DNA of 64,000 bases, taken from Pannonibacter sp. XCT-53 (GTDB lineage Bacteria; Pseudomonadota; Alphaproteobacteria; Rhizobiales; Stappiaceae). Shown piece after piece: positions 9,123-50,645 of the stretch; within the stretch, counting starts at the first letter, position 1, and every line of letters begins with the position of its first letter. The position numbers and the translations under genes were made by a program. The stretch lies in the NCBI RefSeq assembly GCF_009915765.1, contig NZ_JAABLQ010000001.1, positions 2,108,001-2,172,000 on the forward strand. The letters run 5' to 3'. Under the pieces are notes generated by a model. It searched no databases, had not been told where the DNA came from, and saw only the letters and a program-made list of their open reading frames with translations.

Positions 9123-9146
9123 GGGGTTGATTACAAACCCTCTATC

Positions 9147-9336
9147 GTCATCCCGGCCCAGCTGAGCGTGAGCGAAGCGCCGAGCCGGGATCCAGATATC
9201 AGCCGCGCGAAGCGCGACACACCTGTCGGTCGCAAGTCGTATCGAGGTGACTTGGTTTTGCGCTCGCTTGCGCTCGCACTGACATGCTGGATTCCGGATC
9301 TGCGGTTCGCTGAAAGCTCACCTTGTCCGGAATGAC
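9147..9336. repeat. dispersed palindromic repeat element, copy A (type I)
   Basis: A 190-bp imperfect palindrome that begins GTCATCCCGG and ends CTTGTCCGGAATGAC. The interior carries CAGCCGCGCGAAGCGCGAC and a GCGCTCGC-type inner palindrome. It is a diverged member of the family seen at 45101-47398 and is flanked by two copies of the 31-base hairpin. The architecture recalls Rhizobiales intergenic elements of the RIME type. Confidence 0.8.
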
Positions 9337-9374
9337 AGCAAACTGACGAAACTCCGAAGTTTGTCAGCAGTCTG

Positions 9375-9405
9375 AAGGCCCCGGACCATGTTGGTCCGGG
9401 GCCTT
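9375..9405 (-). terminator. strong hairpin, second identical copy
   Basis: Identical to 9092-9122. It lies 42 bases beyond the stop of the chemoreceptor gene that ends at 9448 on the minus strand, where it is well placed to terminate transcription. Confidence 0.55.
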
Positions 9406-43729: not shown

Positions 43730-45049
43730 TTGCGTCTTCTCCTTACCGCCGGTCTGCTCATGACCACCTGCCTTAGCGCCGCTGCGCAGCAGGAATTCAC
43801 CGCCACGCTCGCCGGCCATGCCGTCCTGCCGGCCAGGACCTTCGTCGCCGCCCCGGCCGATGCCCCGGCCGTGCTGCAGACCTCCGGCAAGTTCACCGGC
43901 AAGACCCCGGTGCGGATCACCACGGAAGCCGGCACGGGCGAGACCCTGCCGATCAAGGGCCAGCCGGTGCAGGGCTTTTCCGGCATCAAGTCGCTCGGCA
44001 ACGGCACCTTCCTCGTCGGCTCCGACAACGGCTTCGGCTCGAAGCTGAACTCGCCGGACGCGATGCTGATGTTCCACGAGGTCAAGCCGGACTTCGCCAC
44101 GGGCTCCGTCCAGGTCGTCAAGACCACCTTCCTGTCCGACCCGTCCAGGATCGTCCCCTTCGTCATCTCCGGCGAGGCGACCGACACCCGCTACCTGACC
44201 GGCGCCGACTTCGACCTCGAGGGTTTCCAGCCGGTGGGCGACAAGCTCTACATCGGTGAGGAATTCGGCCCCTACGTCATCTCCGTCGATCGCGCCACCG
44301 GCAAGGTCCTGTCGTTCAACGAGACCGAAGCCAACGGCGGCAAGGTCCGCTCCCCGGATCATTTCGCCGTCAACGTGCCGAACCCGGACGGCAAGATGCC
44401 GGAACTCAACCTGAAGCGCTCCAAGGGCTACGAAGGCTTTGCCGCAGCTCCGGACGGCTCCAGGCTCTACGCCCTGGCCGAAGGCCCGATGTGGAACGTC
44501 GAGAAGGCCGCCTACGAGACCGTTGACGGCAACGAAGCCGCCTCGATCCTCGAGTTCGACACCGCCTCCAACACCTGGACCGGCCGCAGCTGGCTCTACC
44601 GCTTCGAGGCCAACGGCCACGCCATCGGCGACTTCAACATGATCGACGCCACCCGCGGCCTGATCATCGAGCGCGACAACGGCGAAGGCGATGCGGAACT
44701 GGCCTGCAAGGACGGCGCCACCACCGGCTGCTTCAAGTCCCCCGCCAAGTTCAAGCGCGTCTACCTTGTCGACCTCGCCGTCGAGCCGGGCAAGCCGGTG
44801 CGCAAGATCGCCTACATCGACCTGATGAACATCAAGGACCCGAACGGCGTTGCCCGCCTCGGCAAGCGCGCCGACGGCCGCTTCACCTTCCCGTTCTTCA
44901 CCATCGAGAACGTCGACAAGGTGGATGACACCACGCTGATCGTCGCCAACGACAACAACTTCCCCTTCTCGAAGGGCCGTGCCGTTGACGCCATCGACAA
45001 CAACGAGTTCATCCTCCTGAACGTCGGCGACTTCCTCAAGGCCCGGTAA
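43730..45049 (+). CDS. phytase-like (esterase-like activity) secreted protein
   Basis: A 439-residue exported protein. Signal peptide RLLLTAGLLMTTCLSAAAQ (residues 2-20), then a phytase-like propeller domain (PF13449): QGFSGIKSLGNGTFLVGSDN, LEGFQPVGDKLYIGEEFGPY, YEGFAAAPDGSRLYALAEGP, and TLIVANDNNFPFSKG. The family is annotated as esterase-like activity of phytase family; substrate unknown. The start is TTG at 43730 with GGGAGG six bases upstream. Codon usage is unusually uniform (AAC, GGC, TTC), suggesting high expression. The last 400 bases are followed by the repeat array. Confidence 0.88.
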   Translation: MRLLLTAGLLMTTCLSAAAQQEFTATLAGHAVLPARTFVAAPADAPAVLQTSGKFTGKTPVRITTEAGTGETLPIKGQPVQGFSGIKSLGNGTFLVGSDNGFGSKLNSPDAMLMFHEVKPDFATGSVQVVKTTFLSDPSRIVPFVISGEATDTRYLTGADFDLEGFQPVGDKLYIGEEFGPYVISVDRATGKVLSFNETEANGGKVRSPDHFAVNVPNPDGKMPELNLKRSKGYEGFAAAPDGSRLYALAEGPMWNVEKAAYETVDGNEAASILEFDTASNTWTGRSWLYRFEANGHAIGDFNMIDATRGLIIERDNGEGDAELACKDGATTGCFKSPAKFKRVYLVDLAVEPGKPVRKIAYIDLMNIKDPNGVARLGKRADGRFTFPFFTIENVDKVDDTTLIVANDNNFPFSKGRAVDAIDNNEFILLNVGDFLKAR

Positions 45050-45100
45050 GCCTCACCCGGCGGGCGGCGCCCCTCGGCCGCCGCCCGCCTCACCCCACTC

Positions 45101-45206
45101 GTCATTCCGGACAAGGTGAGCGCCAGCAATCCGCAGATCCGGAACCCAGCGCATCTGTGCGAGCGCACGCGAGCGCCAAACCCCTTCACCACGGAATTGC
45201 CCCGCC
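45101..45206. repeat. dispersed palindromic element, half copy B1
   Basis: Begins GTCATTCCGGACAAGGTGAG and carries the type II interior (GCATCTGTGCGAGCGCA) but lacks the right arm. It directly abuts copy B2. Confidence 0.75.
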
Positions 45207-45394
45207 GTCATTCCGGACAAGGCGAGCGCCAGCGAACCGCAGATCCGGAATCCAGACATCAGCCGCGCGACAGCGCGACACATCCCATCCGGCACAAGCC
45301 GCACACTCTGTCGATTGGGCGCTCGCTAGCGCTCGCACAGATCTGCTGGATTCCGGATCATCGGGTCGCTCCCGCTCCCCTCGTCCGGAATGAC
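45207..45394. repeat. dispersed palindromic element, copy B2 (type I)
   Basis: A 188-bp imperfect palindrome from GTCATTCCGG to CCGGAATGAC. The interior has CAGCCGCGCGACAGCGCGAC and the inner palindrome GCGCTCGCTAGCGCTCGC. It is almost identical to copy G at 47211-47398. Confidence 0.85.
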
Positions 45395-45494
45395 GGGAGA
45401 TTTTTTTGGCGCTCAACGACCCCAATCCCGGCATGAGAGGCGTCTCCAACTCCGCCCCCCCCCATACCATCCTCCGCCCCTCGCCCCCCCCACC

Positions 45495-45646
45495 GTCATT
45501 CCGGACAAGGTGAGCACCAGCGAACCGCAGATCCGGAATCCAGCGCATCTGTGCGAGCGCACGCGAGCGCTGAACCGCTACACCACGGAACTACACCAGC
45601 GGATCTTTCCCGTCGGGTCGCTCCCGCTCCCCTCGTCCGGAATGAC
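45495..45646. repeat. dispersed palindromic element, copy C (type II, short)
   Basis: A 152-bp copy with both outer arms (GTCATTCCGG... to ...CCGGAATGAC) but with part of the right interior missing. It lies 100 bases after copy B2, and 70 bases upstream of the GIY-YIG gene. Confidence 0.8.
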
Positions 45647-45716
45647 GGGAAGGGACGGGGTCCAAAAGCCCCGAAAGCGCGTGCATTCAGACAGAAACAC
45701 ATGCATAAATTGCATT

Positions 45717-46004
45717 ATGAGTGCATATGTCTACATTCTGGCATCGGGTCGAAACGGAACGCTCTACATCGGCGTGACGACGTCTTTGCCACAACGCATT
45801 CATCAGCATCGGCAGGGCTATACGCCCGGCTTTGCCTCTCGATACCGCGTAAACCTTCTCGTCTATGCAGAGGCGCACGAGCGGATCGACGAAGCCATTG
45901 CGCGCGAAAAGCGGCTGAAAACCTGGAAGCGCTCCTGGAAGATCGATCTCATCGAAGCCTCCAATCCCGAATGGCAAGATCTCTCGGCCGCCATGTTGCT
46001 CTAG
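45717..46004 (+). CDS. GIY-YIG nuclease family protein
   Basis: A 95-residue stand-alone GIY-YIG domain. Seen: YVYILASGRNGTLYIGVTTS (residues 4-23; Tyr17 and the catalytic-type Arg27 in LPQRIHQH), GFASRYRVNLLVYAEAHERI, and EAIAREKRLKTWKRSWKIDL with the metal-binding-type Glu64. It matches the small UPF0213/YhbQ-like branch. The third-position G/C bias is clearly weaker than in surrounding genes, and it lies inside an array of palindromic repeats, both signs of recent arrival or mobility. Function unknown; such genes are often hitchhikers with repeats. Confidence 0.9.
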   Translation: MSAYVYILASGRNGTLYIGVTTSLPQRIHQHRQGYTPGFASRYRVNLLVYAEAHERIDEAIAREKRLKTWKRSWKIDLIEASNPEWQDLSAAMLL

Positions 46005-46021
46005 TCAGACAACCACCTCCC

Positions 46022-46210
46022 GTCATTCCGGACAAGGTGAGCGCAGCGAACCGCAGATCCGGAATCCAGCGCATCTGTGCGAGCGACAGCGAGTGCCAAA
46101 CCACTTCACCACGGAACGGCACCACCGGATCTGTCCCGTCGCGCTCCGCGCGGCTTACTCGCTGGATTCCGGATCATCGGGTCGCTCCCGCTCCCCTCGT
46201 CCGGAATGAC
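46022..46210. repeat. dispersed palindromic element, copy D (type II)
   Basis: A 189-bp copy beginning 18 bases after the GIY-YIG stop. Outer arms GTCATTCCGG / CCGGAATGAC; the interior has GCATCTGTGCGAGCGACAGC and CGCGCTCCGCGCGGCTTAC. Confidence 0.85.
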
Positions 46211-46302
46211 GAGAGATCTTTTTTTGGCGCTCAACGCCCCACTTCCCTGCAACGGAACCGTTTCCGACTGCCCCCCGCCATCCTCCGCCCTTCCCCCTCC
46301 CC

Positions 46303-46491
46303 GTCATTCCGGACAAGGTGAGCGCAGCGAACCGCAGATCCGGAATCCAGCGCATCTGTGCGAGCGACAGCGAGTGCCAAACCACTTCACCAGGTGACTC
46401 CAATACTGGATCTGTCCCGTCGCGCTCCGCGCGGCTTACTCGCTGGATTCCGGATCATCGGGTCGCTCCCGCTCCCCTCGTCCGGAATGAC
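46303..46491. repeat. dispersed palindromic element, copy E (type II)
   Basis: A 189-bp near-identical copy of D, starting 281 bases after D; the 92-base spacer between them is itself conserved with the next spacer. Confidence 0.87.
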
Positions 46492-46585
46492 GGGAGATTT
46501 TTTGGCGCGGGAGGACACACATCCCGGCAACGGAACCGTTTCCAACGGCCCCCCGCACCATCCTCCGCCCATCGCCCCCCTCCCC

Positions 46586-46705
46586 GTCATTCCGAACAAG
46601 GTGAGCACCAGCGAACCGCAGATCCGGAATCCAGCGCATCTGTGCGAGCGACAGCGAGCGCTGACCCCCTTCACCACGGGACCTCAACCACCGGATCTGC
46701 CCCAT
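46586..46705. repeat. dispersed palindromic element, truncated copy F
   Basis: Left arm and left interior of a type II copy (one base change in the arm, TTCCGAACAAGG), starting 283 bases after E. It ends just before the DUF1284 stop codon region; no right arm is present. The boundary is approximate. Confidence 0.75.
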
Positions 46706-46731
46706 GGTCCGGCTCCCCGTGTCCGGCTGTC

Positions 46732-47157
46732 TCAGCCGCCCTGGACCCGCGTCCCGGCAAATCCGCTGCCGGCCACCTGATCACACAGGCCGGACCACTG
46801 GCACCCGCCGCAGGCCTTGCGGATGGAACCTGCCGCAAATCCCGCCTGCAGCCGGGCAATCAGCGCCCCGTCCAGCACCAGCTCGCCACCGGTCTCCAGC
46901 GCCAGCCCCGTCAACGCCGCCACATCCGCCAGCGCCTGCGCATCCCGCAGCCTCACGCTGTCGTTGTGGCAATGCGGATCATCGGTGCCGAGCAGCGGCG
47001 CGCAAATGTCATCCGGCCCTTCGACCATGACAACGGGCTCGCCGGCGCGAATGCGGTCGATGATGCGGCCATAATTGACGACAAACCGCGGGCTGTAGCC
47101 CTCGCCGACAAAGGTCAGCATGCACAGGAAATGATGCGGTCGCAGGCGGATGGTCAT
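46732..47157 (-). CDS. DUF1284 family protein
   Basis: A 141-residue protein starting TIRLRPHHFLCMLTFVGEGY, the DUF1284 signature, followed by VNYGRIIDRIRAG, CAPLLGTDDPHCHNDSV and a C-terminal cysteine group ACGGCQWSGLCD. Five or more conserved Cys/His residues suggest metal or Fe-S binding. The length is normal. It lies between repeat copies F and G, both of which abut it. No promoter stands out. Function unknown. Confidence 0.88.
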   Translation of the reverse strand: MTIRLRPHHFLCMLTFVGEGYSPRFVVNYGRIIDRIRAGEPVVMVEGPDDICAPLLGTDDPHCHNDSVRLRDAQALADVAALTGLALETGGELVLDGALIARLQAGFAAGSIRKACGGCQWSGLCDQVAGSGFAGTRVQGG

Positions 47158-47210
47158 CCCCTTGCGTACCCTGTTTTCGCCAGCCTGTCAGCGGTCGGGC
47201 AACTGCCACC

Positions 47211-47398
47211 GTCATTCCGGACAAGGTGAGCGCAAGCGAACCGCAGATCCGGAATCCAGACATCAGCCGCGCGACAGCGCGACACATCCAATCCGGTACA
47301 AGCCGCACACTCTGTCGATTGGGCGCTCGCTTGCGCTCGCACAGATCTGCTGGATTCCGGATCATCGGGTCGCTCCCGCTCCCCTCGTCCGGAATGAC
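47211..47398. repeat. dispersed palindromic element, copy G (type I)
   Basis: A 188-bp type I copy almost identical to B2 (45207-45394), with the inner palindrome GCGCTCGCTTGCGCTCGC. Its right arm abuts the sodB terminator. Confidence 0.87.
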
Positions 47399-47400
47399 AA

Positions 47401-47426
47401 AAGGCCCGGCGTTGCCGCCGGGCCTT
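47401..47426 (-). terminator. sodB terminator
   Basis: AAGGCCCGGC, six-base loop, GCCGGGCCTT; on the minus strand the stem is followed by TTTT. It lies 25 bases past the sodB stop. Confidence 0.75.
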
Positions 47427-47450
47427 CCAAAATCAAACGTCCAGAACCGC

Positions 47451-48053
47451 TTACTTGGCTACGGCTTCGTACATTTCCAGCACGTAGTCCCAGTTGACCA
47501 GGCTGTCGACGAAGGCTTCCAGGTACTTCGGGCGGGCGTTGCGGTAGTCGATGTAGTAGGAGTGCTCCCACACGTCGACGCCGAGGATCGGGGCGGCGCC
47601 ATGGACCAGCGGGCTTTCGCCGTTCGGGGTCTTCAGGATGACCAGCTTGCCGTCCTTGACCGCAACCCAGGCCCAGCCGGAGCCGAACTGGGTGGTGCCG
47701 GCGGCGATGAAGTCGGCGCGGAACTTGTCATAGCCGCCGAGGTCGCTGTCGATGGCCTTGGCCAGCGCGCCCGGGATCGACTTGCCGCCGCCATTCGGCT
47801 TCATCCACTTCCAGAAGTGGATGTGGTTGTAGTGCTGGCCGGCGTTGTTGAAGAGGCCGGCGTTCTTGCCGAAGCTCTCCTTGACGATCTCTTCCAGCGT
47901 CTTGCCTTCCAGGCCGCTGTCCTTCAGCAGGTTGTTGCCGTTGGTGACATAGGCGAGGTGATGCTTGTCGTGATGATACTCAAGCGTCTCCTTGGACATG
48001 TAGGGGCCAAGGGCGTCATAGGCGTAGGGCAGCTCGGGAAGTTCAAACGACAT
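47451..48053 (-). CDS. sodB: Fe-type superoxide dismutase
   Basis: A 200-residue Fe/Mn-SOD. Metal ligands seen: His27 (EYHHDKHH), His77 (HYNHIHFW), Asp160 and His164 (GVDVWEHSYYIDY). Gln73 in NNAGQHYNH is the position that favours the iron form, though cambialistic use is possible. No signal peptide, so cytoplasmic; it removes superoxide. The rate-tuning residue Tyr36 is present in AYVTNGN. Length normal. It is transcribed alone, with a hairpin terminator downstream and a 350-base divergent region upstream. Confidence 0.97.
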   Translation of the reverse strand: MSFELPELPYAYDALGPYMSKETLEYHHDKHHLAYVTNGNNLLKDSGLEGKTLEEIVKESFGKNAGLFNNAGQHYNHIHFWKWMKPNGGGKSIPGALAKAIDSDLGGYDKFRADFIAAGTTQFGSGWAWVAVKDGKLVILKTPNGESPLVHGAAPILGVDVWEHSYYIDYRNARPKYLEAFVDSLVNWDYVLEMYEAVAK

Positions 48054-49280: not shown

Positions 49281-50645
49281 GTGTCAAACTCTCCCCCGTC
49301 CGGTCTCCCCCCGTCCGGTCCTGCCCTATCCGGTCCTGCCCTATCCGGTCCTGCCCCGCCCGATCCTGCCTTGGCCGGTCCTGCCTTGGCCGGACCTCCA
49401 CCGTCCGCCCCTCCGGCGGCTGCGGCGGGGCGCGCCGATCCGGACAACAGCGGAACACATGACGCCCAGGCCGGAAGCACCGCCACCGCCACCGCCGCCT
49501 TCACCGCCCTTGGCGGGCTGCTGGCGCTGGCGGCTGCCATGGGCATCGGCCGGTTCGTCTATACGCCGATCCTGCCCTTCATGACCGAAGGCGTGCCGCT
49601 GTCGCCGGCCCAGGGCGGCCTGATTGCCTCGGCGAATTTCCTCGGCTACCTGATCGGCGCGCTGCTGGCGACGCTGCCCGGACTGCCGGGGCAGCAGCGG
49701 ACCTGGCTGGTCGGGGCGCTCGGGGCCAGCGTGGCGACCAGCCTCGCCATGGGCGTGGCCGGAGACCTTGCCACCTTTGCCCTGCTGCGTTTCGCCAGCG
49801 GGCTGGCCAGCGCCTTTGCCTTCGTGTTTGCGGCCGCGCTGGTGCTGGACCGACTGGCGCGGGTCGGCCGGCCGGGGCTGTCTGCGGTGCATTTCGCCGG
49901 CGTCGGGCTCGGCATTGCGCTGTCGGCGGTGATGGTGGCCGGACTTGCGGCAGCCGGAAGCGGCTGGCGCGGCCTGTGGCTCGCCTCCGGCGGCCTTACC
50001 CTGTTGCTGACGGTCGCCGTCATCCGGCTCCTCGGCACCACGCCGCCGCCGGACGGACCTGCGCCCGCACCGGCTGCGGCACCCGCGCGCCTGTCGGGTC
50101 GCGTCATCCGGCTGGTGGTGGCCTACGGCCTCTATGGTCTCGGCTACGTGGTCACGGCGACCTTCGTGTCGGTGATTGCCCGCTCGGACCCGGCGCTGGC
50201 GCCGGTCGAGGCCCTGGTGTGGCTCGTCGTCGGCCTGTCGGCCGCGCCCTCGATCCTGATCTGGAACACGGTCGCGGGCCGGATCGGGGCGGCCCGCGCC
50301 TTCGCGCTTGCTGCCGCGCTCGAAGCCGTCGGCGTGGTCCTGTCGGTGACCAGCGGGTCGGCACTCGGCCTTCTTGCGGCAGCGGCCCTGCTCGGGGGGA
50401 CCTTCGTCGGCATCACCGCGCTCGGCTTCGTCGAGGCGCGACGCCTCGCCGGTGGCGATCCCCGCCGCCTGCTCGCGGCCATGACCGCCAGTTTCGGCCT
50501 TGGCCAGATGCTGGGGCCAAGCCTTGCCGGGTTCGGGGCCGCGGCGACCGGCAGCTTCCTGCTGCCCTCGCTGGCGGCCGCCGCCTGCCTCCTCCTCTCG
50601 GGCGCGCTGATGCTGTGGCCCGCGCGCCCGGAGGGGACCGCCTGA
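49281..50645 (+). CDS. YbfB/YjiJ family MFS transporter with repeat-coded N-terminus
   Basis: A transporter of 454 residues from the GTG at 49281 (468 from the GTG at 49239; neither has a good ribosome site). The 12-helix core starts near residue 72 with ALAAAMGIGRFVYTPILPFM, the hallmark of YbfB/YjiJ. Upstream of it lies a Pro/Gly/Ala/Ser-rich extension (GPALSGPALSGPAPPDPALA) coded by six 15-bp tandem repeats at 49315-49399, which relatives are not expected to have. Substrate unknown. It lies 170 bases after the thermonuclease gene and converges with the aminotransferase gene, three bases away. Confidence 0.82.
   Translation: MSNSPPSGLPPSGPALSGPALSGPAPPDPALAGPALAGPPPSAPPAAAAGRADPDNSGTHDAQAGSTATATAAFTALGGLLALAAAMGIGRFVYTPILPFMTEGVPLSPAQGGLIASANFLGYLIGALLATLPGLPGQQRTWLVGALGASVATSLAMGVAGDLATFALLRFASGLASAFAFVFAAALVLDRLARVGRPGLSAVHFAGVGLGIALSAVMVAGLAAAGSGWRGLWLASGGLTLLLTVAVIRLLGTTPPPDGPAPAPAAAPARLSGRVIRLVVAYGLYGLGYVVTATFVSVIARSDPALAPVEALVWLVVGLSAAPSILIWNTVAGRIGAARAFALAAALEAVGVVLSVTSGSALGLLAAAALLGGTFVGITALGFVEARRLAGGDPRRLLAAMTASFGLGQMLGPSLAGFGAAATGSFLLPSLAAAACLLLSGALMLWPARPEGTA
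49315..49399. repeat. 15-bp minisatellite in the MFS N-terminus
   Basis: Five to six copies of CCGGTCCTGCCCTAT (two exact, then variants ending CCCGC and TTGG). Because 15 is a multiple of three, copy-number change preserves the frame and only alters a Gly-Pro-Ala-Leu-Ser repeat. Confidence 0.85.

Follow-up and report, generated by a model that had tools for sequence, protein, structure and literature searches.

What has multiplied a long palindrome at regular intervals around a small nuclease gene? The question is raised by positions 45207-46705 of the stretch of Pannonibacter sp. XCT-53 DNA analyzed here (the window, 64 kb long). We lean toward the answer that a REP-nuclease pair has its home locus in this array, a pair that is REPtron-like but built on an unrelated enzyme, and in which the nuclease cuts the REP and repair copies it.

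Architecture of the array

The repeats at 45207-46705 form a genuine tandem array. Left arms of the form GTCATTCCGGA start at 45101, 45207, 45495, 46022, 46303, 46586 (with one mismatch) and 47211, and right arms end at 45394, 45646, 46210, 46491 and 47398; allowing up to one mismatch, this 11-mer occurs 13 times in the 64-kb window, where 1.2 occurrences are expected. One palindrome dimer of the array measures ~190 bp and comprises two outward-facing arms, the head-out orientation being common to all complete dimers. The initial annotation listed five copies with start-to-start spacings of 288, 281 and 283 bp. Those spacings are correct and arms are found at all five starts, but 46586 begins a left half whose right arm is absent, and two more elements are missing from the list: another left half, at 45101, and a complete dimer at 47211-47398.

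Read along the + strand, on which all these features lie, the locus opens with the left half of a CGTC-REP dimer (45100-45205), located by arm search. This half has a degenerate counterpart in a genome of the same genus (G003), at the same position after a phytase-like gene. Unit 1 is a head-out CGTC-REP dimer (45206-45395), 97% identical to the one at 47211-47398, and is followed by a spacer (45396-45493) that shares homology with those of units 3 and 4. Unit 2 (45494-45647) is a shortened CGTC-REP dimer upstream of a stand-alone GIY-YIG nuclease gene of 95 aa (45717-46004). Units 3 (46021-46211) and 4 (46302-46492) are again CGTC-REP dimers, with spacers at 46212-46301 and 46493-46584, respectively, and unit 5 (46585-46704) is a left half-dimer without a right arm. 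An extra CGTC-REP dimer (47210-47398) lies between a DUF1284 gene and an Fe/Mn superoxide dismutase gene.

A recognizable spacer had been reported for every copy; this holds for three of the five (45207, 46022 and 46303) and fails for 45495, which the nuclease gene follows, and for the left half at 46586. The spacer word CAACGGAACCGTTTCC is exact in two of these three spacers. The three nevertheless passed the proposed alignment check far above chance, with pairwise Needleman-Wunsch scores of 35, 46 and 49 against means of -13 to -16 (sd 5-6) for shuffled spacers. Searched alone against the whole genome, the spacer at 46212-46302 has three matches, all within the array (15/15 candidates scored), and the array palindrome recurs at dozens of further places (40/81 candidates scored).

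The closest pair of units, 3 and 4 with their spacers, is 92% identical over 277 columns, and unit 1 is 74% identical to the units at 46022 and 46303. Since the palindrome of unit 1 is 97% like the dimer at 47211 while the unit is 74% like units 3 and 4, palindrome and spacer have different histories; an array-type spacer joined to a palindrome of another subfamily indicates that palindrome replacement also occurred. The local duplication originally proposed is therefore upheld for the spacer-bearing units, whose spacer matches lie only in the array, but not for the palindrome of unit 1. Tandem duplication and palindrome replacement have thus both shaped the array. A known RNA element was ruled out as the identity of the array, Rfam giving no match up to E 0.1 at 44900-47500.

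Each arm in the window reads CGTC, ATTCCGGA, loop, TCCGGAAT, CCA. All seven left arms start with CGTCATTCC and so carry the CGTC tag; the stem, ATTCCGGA/TCCGGAAT, has 8 bp, starts with A and contains one mismatch in 2 of 11 hairpins; and the CCA tail is present in 11/11 REP hairpins at 45000-47500. In excerpts of its published description, the CGTC-REP superfamily is characterized by an unpaired CGTC tag (variants TGTC/CCTC) at one end, a stem of 8-9 bp beginning with A (mostly AT), a CCA tail and a loop of 4-5 nt, with other loops in some (Di Nocera et al. 2013, PMC3733652). The same excerpts describe predominantly head-to-head dimers, mainly in alphaproteobacteria, and clusters in Neisseria known as dRS3 (PMC3733652). 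The window REPs share with the superfamily as there described the tag, the A-initial 8-bp stem, the CCA tail and the arrangement in dimers, and differ from its typical members in a loop of 25-26 nt with the 8-bp stem, as against 4-5 nt (PMC3733652). Loop length excepted, the array palindromes can be classed as head-out dimers of CGTC-tagged REPs. The excerpted account reports no association of CGTC REPs with transposase genes and no dedicated transposase, and leaves their mode of spreading unexplained (PMC3733652); here, in contrast, they flank a GIY-YIG nuclease gene.

The nuclease gene and its REP neighborhood

The initial annotation overlooked the nuclease gene inside the array; similar repeats recur beside such genes elsewhere. 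Its 95-aa product (45717-46004, + strand) matches PF01541 at 58.5 bits against a cut-off of 22.6 (E 8e-16). Residues Y6, Y17, G19, R27, H31, E64 and N83, which we take to have catalytic roles in the GIY-YIG domain, are invariant among 29 aligned sequences (alignment A1, with L038 and L052 left out because they contain stops). The AlphaFold model (mean pLDDT 90.8) finds its best PDB matches in the UPF0213 proteins 1zg2 and 1ywl (E 1e-4 and 0.02), followed weakly (E 0.06) by chains of Slx1, a nuclease for branched DNA, and the protein is thereby predicted to have the GIY-YIG fold of UPF0213/YhbQ-like proteins and Slx1. Only 31 residues of E. coli YhbQ align with the window protein (35%), and the yhbQ gene, unlike that of the window, sits tightly between other genes in a 7-kb region in which our strict scan finds no REP. 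The gene is present in 48 of 61 genomes (Pannonibacter sp. XCT-53 and 60 relatives), at 0-6 copies each. Carriage of the nuclease by phages was ruled out, with 0 matches in 50,697 phage records.

A wider sample was obtained with one conserved motif, searched in one genome per species; it consists of the best 80 of 578 matching loci, all from named organisms and with up to 10 kb on each side of the nuclease gene, and is not random. These best 80 of 578 loci belong to alpha-, beta-, gamma- and deltaproteobacteria and, in metagenome bins where contamination is possible, to Armatimonadota, Ignavibacteria, Elusimicrobia and candidate phyla. Gene and REPs are tightly associated in many of these bacteria. 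By a permissive hairpin scan, 77 of the best 80 loci have one or more REP-like hairpins no further than 500 bp from the gene. By the strict scan, which requires GTCA and accepts the tail [CT][CT][AG], REP density across the best 80 of 578 loci is 8.03 per kb at 0-100 bp, 4.53 at 100-200 bp and 1.63 at 200-300 bp, then 0.62 at 300-500 bp, 0.23 at 0.5-1 kb and 0.066 at 7-10 kb, compared with 0.011 per kb in block-shuffled flanks. After dropping 7 of the 80 loci with <300 bp available on a side, a REP lies within 300 bp on at least one side at 70/73 loci and on both sides at 57/73. Under a crude ORF call, REPs occupy 84 of 93 gene-adjacent intergenic gaps versus 36 of 333 other gaps of the same loci.

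UvrC, another GIY-YIG protein, provides a control within the same 61 genomes: a REP is found at 0/30 UvrC loci versus 22/29 GIY loci, the control being one-sided for 16 of the 30, where the match ends inside the gene and that side tests gene sequence. A REP is also found at 22 of 39 additional GIY loci of relatives, three of the 39 being repeats of loci in the former set. The association is weaker in these nearer relatives (22/29 and 22/39), and some of their REP-negative loci may hold REPs that escape the scan through a CCTC tag, a different tail or decay.

Where REPs occur on both sides (61 of the best 80 of 578 loci), the nearest ones point heads-outward at 44 loci and are arranged otherwise at 17. 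At the 44 head-out loci the REPs stand a median of 31 and 25 bp away from the gene match and span 376 bp from head to head (median; range 353-548), the commonest layout in this best-80 sample being CGTC-REP, ~31 bp, nuclease gene, ~25 bp and inverted REP over ~376 bp. The window shows a minority layout, with the nuclease gene between two dimers and not within one. Adjacent REP pairs distal to the gene are head-out in 26/41 cases at these loci (best 80 of 578); since they share the layout of the gene-bearing unit, a gene-less dimer would resemble a non-autonomous version of it. One Neisseria record, searched between -600 and +900, carries 12 dRS3-type hairpins, which extend from 555 bp ahead of the gene to 427 bp beyond it.

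The base before GTC in the 122 nearest REPs of the 61 loci (best 80 of 578) is C in 86, T in 32 and G in 4, and the CCA tail is present in 114 of the 122. The stem varies among 60 GIY-flanking REPs, with compensatory change at 7/8 pairs; these REPs were picked for complementarity and GTCA, and the percentage of paired positions is partly by construction. Their loops, from other GIY loci, are 4-5 nt long, but selection was by length.

Flanking REPs match each other and their nuclease. Left and right stems are identical at 35/61 loci (best 80 of 578), against a mean of 3.7 and a maximum of 10 in 1000 shuffles, and nuclease distance correlates with REP distance over 60 loci (Mantel 0.264; maximum 0.175 in 2000 permutations). 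Paralogues have REPs of their own: the one close paralogue in Pannonibacter sp. XCT-53 (49%, C1:403084-403353) adjoins two tandem copies of a different REP dimer, of the TGTCACCCCGG type, so that the two GIY genes most alike in this genome lie beside different REP families, each of them dispersed as well. Three paralogues of another genome (L246, L247 and L248 of G013) likewise have different REPs. Dispersed copies of the nuclease-flanking REPs occur in the few genomes viewed as a whole. In G056 the flanking 27-mer is exact at 7/7 dispersed sites retrieved, and the short flanking REP is found at 3/3 sites in G037 and at 5/7 in G047; the sites are best-scoring model matches and biased to similarity. 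Taken with the layout of the loci, this pairing suggests that the nuclease is the missing enzyme that spreads CGTC REPs.

Amplification, movement and competing explanations

As the enzyme of a REP-nuclease pair, the nuclease, with its predicted Slx1-like fold, would recognize its cognate CGTC palindrome when this is extruded, either as a hairpin or as a cruciform, and cut the folded REP. The break would be repaired by copying from another REP copy or the sister. Beside the gene this would yield tandem duplicates; elsewhere REP cores would be exchanged where they stand, the unit would be inserted between palindromes or lost from there, and on rare occasions a dispersed copy would arise anew. 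Dispersed gene-less REP dimers would then be non-autonomous versions, as REPINs are to RAYTs. We infer both that the nuclease cleaves the REP and that cleavage drives the copying. A more general proposal, which we put forward tentatively and hold at somewhat less than even, is that CGTC REPs belong to a selfish element of ~376 bp whose sole protein is a lone GIY-YIG nuclease of Slx1-like fold, and which spreads by cutting palindromes and by host repair, without a transposase, in alphaproteobacteria, other proteobacteria and, according to metagenome bins, several more phyla; the window array would be a home locus in the course of amplifying.

Amplification next to the gene is recurrent. After removal of 12 loci with <1 kb on a side from the best 80 of 578, direct repeats of at least 100 bp with a period of up to 800 bp are found within 1 kb of the gene at 17/68 loci versus 3/225 distal segments, a contrast that fits a nuclease effect or a REP-density effect alike. 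Some gene-adjacent tandem repeats have one copy on either side of the gene. Because such repeats recur beside the gene in other genomes, the window array represents a recurrent type.

The unit is also present in some related records and absent from others. On Sphingobium plasmids it lies between fnrL and a response-regulator gene in seven records, and four records are without it. The gene of TomMM7A stands exactly between two CGTC heads, and at this site TomTYG64 has one uninterrupted CGTC-stem-loop-stem-GACG palindrome, TomTYG74 a slightly degenerate palindrome and TomTYG72 none. The strict scan finds no REP in TomTYG65, TomTYG46 and TomMM15, and it generally misses Sphingobium REPs because their tail is CCC. 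In Azospirillum lipoferum 4B the gene and two REP dimers lie between sufB and sufC. Matches to the suf operon in 11 other Azospirillum records leave part of it uncovered, and the three of these records read at sufB-sufC have neither gene nor REP. Two Shinella records, relatives of a filled Shinella plasmid, lack the unit. Flanks differ in both Azospirillum and Shinella, so unit boundaries and target duplications cannot be fixed there. Between genomes G001 and G004 a REP pair beside the gene has collapsed to one palindrome, with the gene kept. Deletion between short direct stem repeats could account for the collapses in Sphingobium and between G001 and G004, and the direction of change may be either way.

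The Sphingobium plasmids give ground for a different view, that the gene is a free-standing homing-type parasite for which the numerous CGTC palindromes are landing or cleavage targets, the REPs themselves being spread by something else. Homing predicts the uninterrupted palindrome that TomTYG64 has where the gene of TomMM7A lies between CGTC heads, and REPs do exist in genomes without the gene. By model R1, whose counts are lower bounds (up to 123 candidates scored per genome, long-loop REPs missed), 8 of 13 relatives without the gene have more than one REP, with up to at least 112, and carriers show no significant difference from non-carriers in REP count (Mann-Whitney p 0.16). Genomes with 0-1 REPs are commoner without the gene (5/13 vs 2/48; Fisher p 0.0035), and gene copies correlate with REP counts (Spearman 0.37, p 0.003). 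Pannonibacter sp. XCT-53 itself scores 3 REPs by R1, a lower bound with its long loops missed. Against a homing parasite, left and right REP variants match within a locus and track nuclease similarity. The empty palindrome, moreover, can also be derived from a filled locus by deletion between the 8-bp direct stem repeats, and a like collapse without gene loss separates G001 and G004. We regard a homing-type parasite as possible but doubtful.

Near-identical copies of the unit within one genome are absent from the paralogue sets of 16 relatives and Pannonibacter sp. XCT-53 (L270, with two GIY genes, was left out), and the unit is therefore not an active self-copying transposon there. RAYTs are not seen multiplying within a genome either, and in this the unit resembles RAYTs more than active transposons.

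It is improbable, in our assessment, that the nuclease is instead a host-benefit enzyme that removes REP cruciforms in the manner of Slx1-like repair and is kept near REPs for that reason, with the array a product of replication slippage. The predicted fold and the weak Slx1 matches are in accord with such a role, the E. coli homologue carries the annotation of a nuclease in the DNA damage response, and slippage alone would account for tandem duplication. A repair function, however, gives no evident reason for the ~30-bp proximity, the head-out layout or the unrelated gene contexts, and E. coli yhbQ keeps its tight place between other genes without a REP over 7 kb. Tandem repeats are also much rarer away from the gene, a comparison in which REP content and nuclease are not separated.

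Dispersed copies in this genome introduce a further candidate. Of 16 dispersed copies examined, 13 have a MITE-type terminal repeat of 17 bp (up to 4 mismatches) at one end or both, 10 of them at both. Around 10/13 of these terminal-repeat copies and 1/3 of the others a terminator-like hairpin occurs in duplicate, the two hairpins sharing words of 21-33 bp. The genome holds 46 TIR-like sites, versus 0 for the reversed pattern. One such copy in the window, L010, is a CGTC-REP heterodimer on the - strand (9124-9375) with the 17-bp repeat at its 9375 end, the only terminal repeat in the 64-kb window at up to 3 mismatches. L010 sits between two copies of the terminator-like hairpin. The same terminal repeats occur around other REP cores.

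From the 13 of 16 copies with such ends, another enzyme may have moved the dispersed copies. That a TIR-type transposase spreads the repeats of this genome as MITEs, the nuclease gene being incidental, is nevertheless very improbable. No MITE-type terminal repeat is found at 45000-47500 or at the sites retrieved from G056, G037 and G047, and the association in other genomes is left unexplained. Among the transposase families searched in this genome, neither DDE_Tnp_1_6 (PF13751) nor Y1_Tnp (PF01797) has a match. An IS1182-type transposase, to which we presume PF13751 is linked, was ruled out on this ground as parent of the TIR elements, as was RAYT mobilization in this genome. A target duplication of the terminator hairpin around the nuclease unit, as at the MITE-like copies, was rejected (1/106 loci). 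An assembly artefact is unlikely to lie behind the array, and artefact or chance as the whole explanation can be practically dismissed, as the units differ (92% identity between the closest two), lie inside a 3.3-Mb contig and have spacers that align far above shuffles.

Comparison with known systems

If CGTC REPs are spread by the nuclease beside them, this superfamily, one of two large REP superfamilies, would not consist of orphans. The embedded gene is a directly testable candidate for how CGTC REPs spread, and possibly represents a mobile element that needs only a nuclease and repair. The pairing would annotate many small genes now called 'GIY-YIG nuclease family protein', and may explain clustered REP arrays such as the dRS3 elements of Neisseria. 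An earlier link between a GIY-YIG nuclease and REPs was not found among the papers listed from the open-licence literature, and the pairing of a GIY-YIG gene with CGTC REPs appears to be new; it is REPtron-like in its working but belongs to another family by its enzyme and tag.

GIY-YIG homing endonucleases, whether free-standing or of group I introns (I-TevI, for example), belong to the same catalytic superfamily (PMC1564403), and the window gene is like theirs in that it may interrupt its palindromic target. Unlike homing endonuclease genes, it has the repeat itself on its flanks; no intron or intein was noted there, and a protein of 95 aa can hardly accommodate an additional DNA-binding domain. 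The likeness to REPtrons and REPINs (PMC3733652) covers several traits: an enzyme gene lies beside or between REPs, REP dimers occur elsewhere in the genome, paralogues have specific REPs, and the enzyme is not seen multiplying within a genome. The difference lies in the enzyme and the tag, the REPs of REPtrons being served by an HUH tyrosine transposase (the RAYT, or TnpAREP, with a Y1_Tnp domain) and tagged GTAG, and those described here being paired with a GIY-YIG nuclease (PF01541) and tagged CGTC.

Dispersed MITE-like elements in the Pannonibacter sp. XCT-53 genome

MITE-like elements of ~255 bp with a CGTC-REP heterodimer core are present in the window at 9124-9375 (minus strand; locus L010) and elsewhere in the same genome at loci L004-L008 and L011-L017. 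In these 13 elements, one or both ends of the unit enclosing the heterodimer carry a 17-bp terminal repeat (TCAGACTGCTGACAAAC), and 10 of the elements are bracketed by a duplicated terminator-like hairpin whose copies share words of 21-33 bp. Elements of 184-186 bp at L220, L223, and L225, also from this genome, carry other, dissimilar REP cores inside these same terminal repeats, as if REP cores had been swapped within a fixed terminal-repeat frame. The window also contains a tandem repeat of 5.5 copies of a 15-bp unit (49299-49397), which bears no relation to the REP-nuclease finding.

The array site and the DUF1284-sodB gap in relatives

In the same-genus genomes G003 (L165) and G002 (L166), the site of the REP array (window 45101-46704) is instead occupied by two genes 5' of the DUF1284 gene, by eye a putative Crp-like regulator and a putative small DUF2892-like protein. 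We compared the gap between the DUF1284 and superoxide dismutase (sodB) genes in the window (47199-47398) with loci L165, L166, L167, and L168. The window gap holds a dimer of ATTCCGGA type, whereas that of G002 holds an ACCCCGG-type dimer. G003 also has an ACCCCGG-type dimer, carrying near its start an insertion that by eye resembles an IS. By-eye reading saw no REP in this gap in the relatives G001 and G004.

GIY-YIG genes beside REPs in other genomes

The close loci L061 (G001) and L056 (G004) differ in the apparent collapse of an inverted REP pair to a single palindrome, the junction being marked by a 9-bp direct repeat; both loci have the adjoining GIY-YIG gene. In Neisseria gonorrhoeae (L199; NZ_CP119140.1, a plasmid by listing, yet 2.17 Mb), 12 CGTC hairpins resembling the clustered dRS3 repeats of this genus surround a GIY-YIG gene, over a stretch that begins 555 bp before the gene and ends 427 bp past it.
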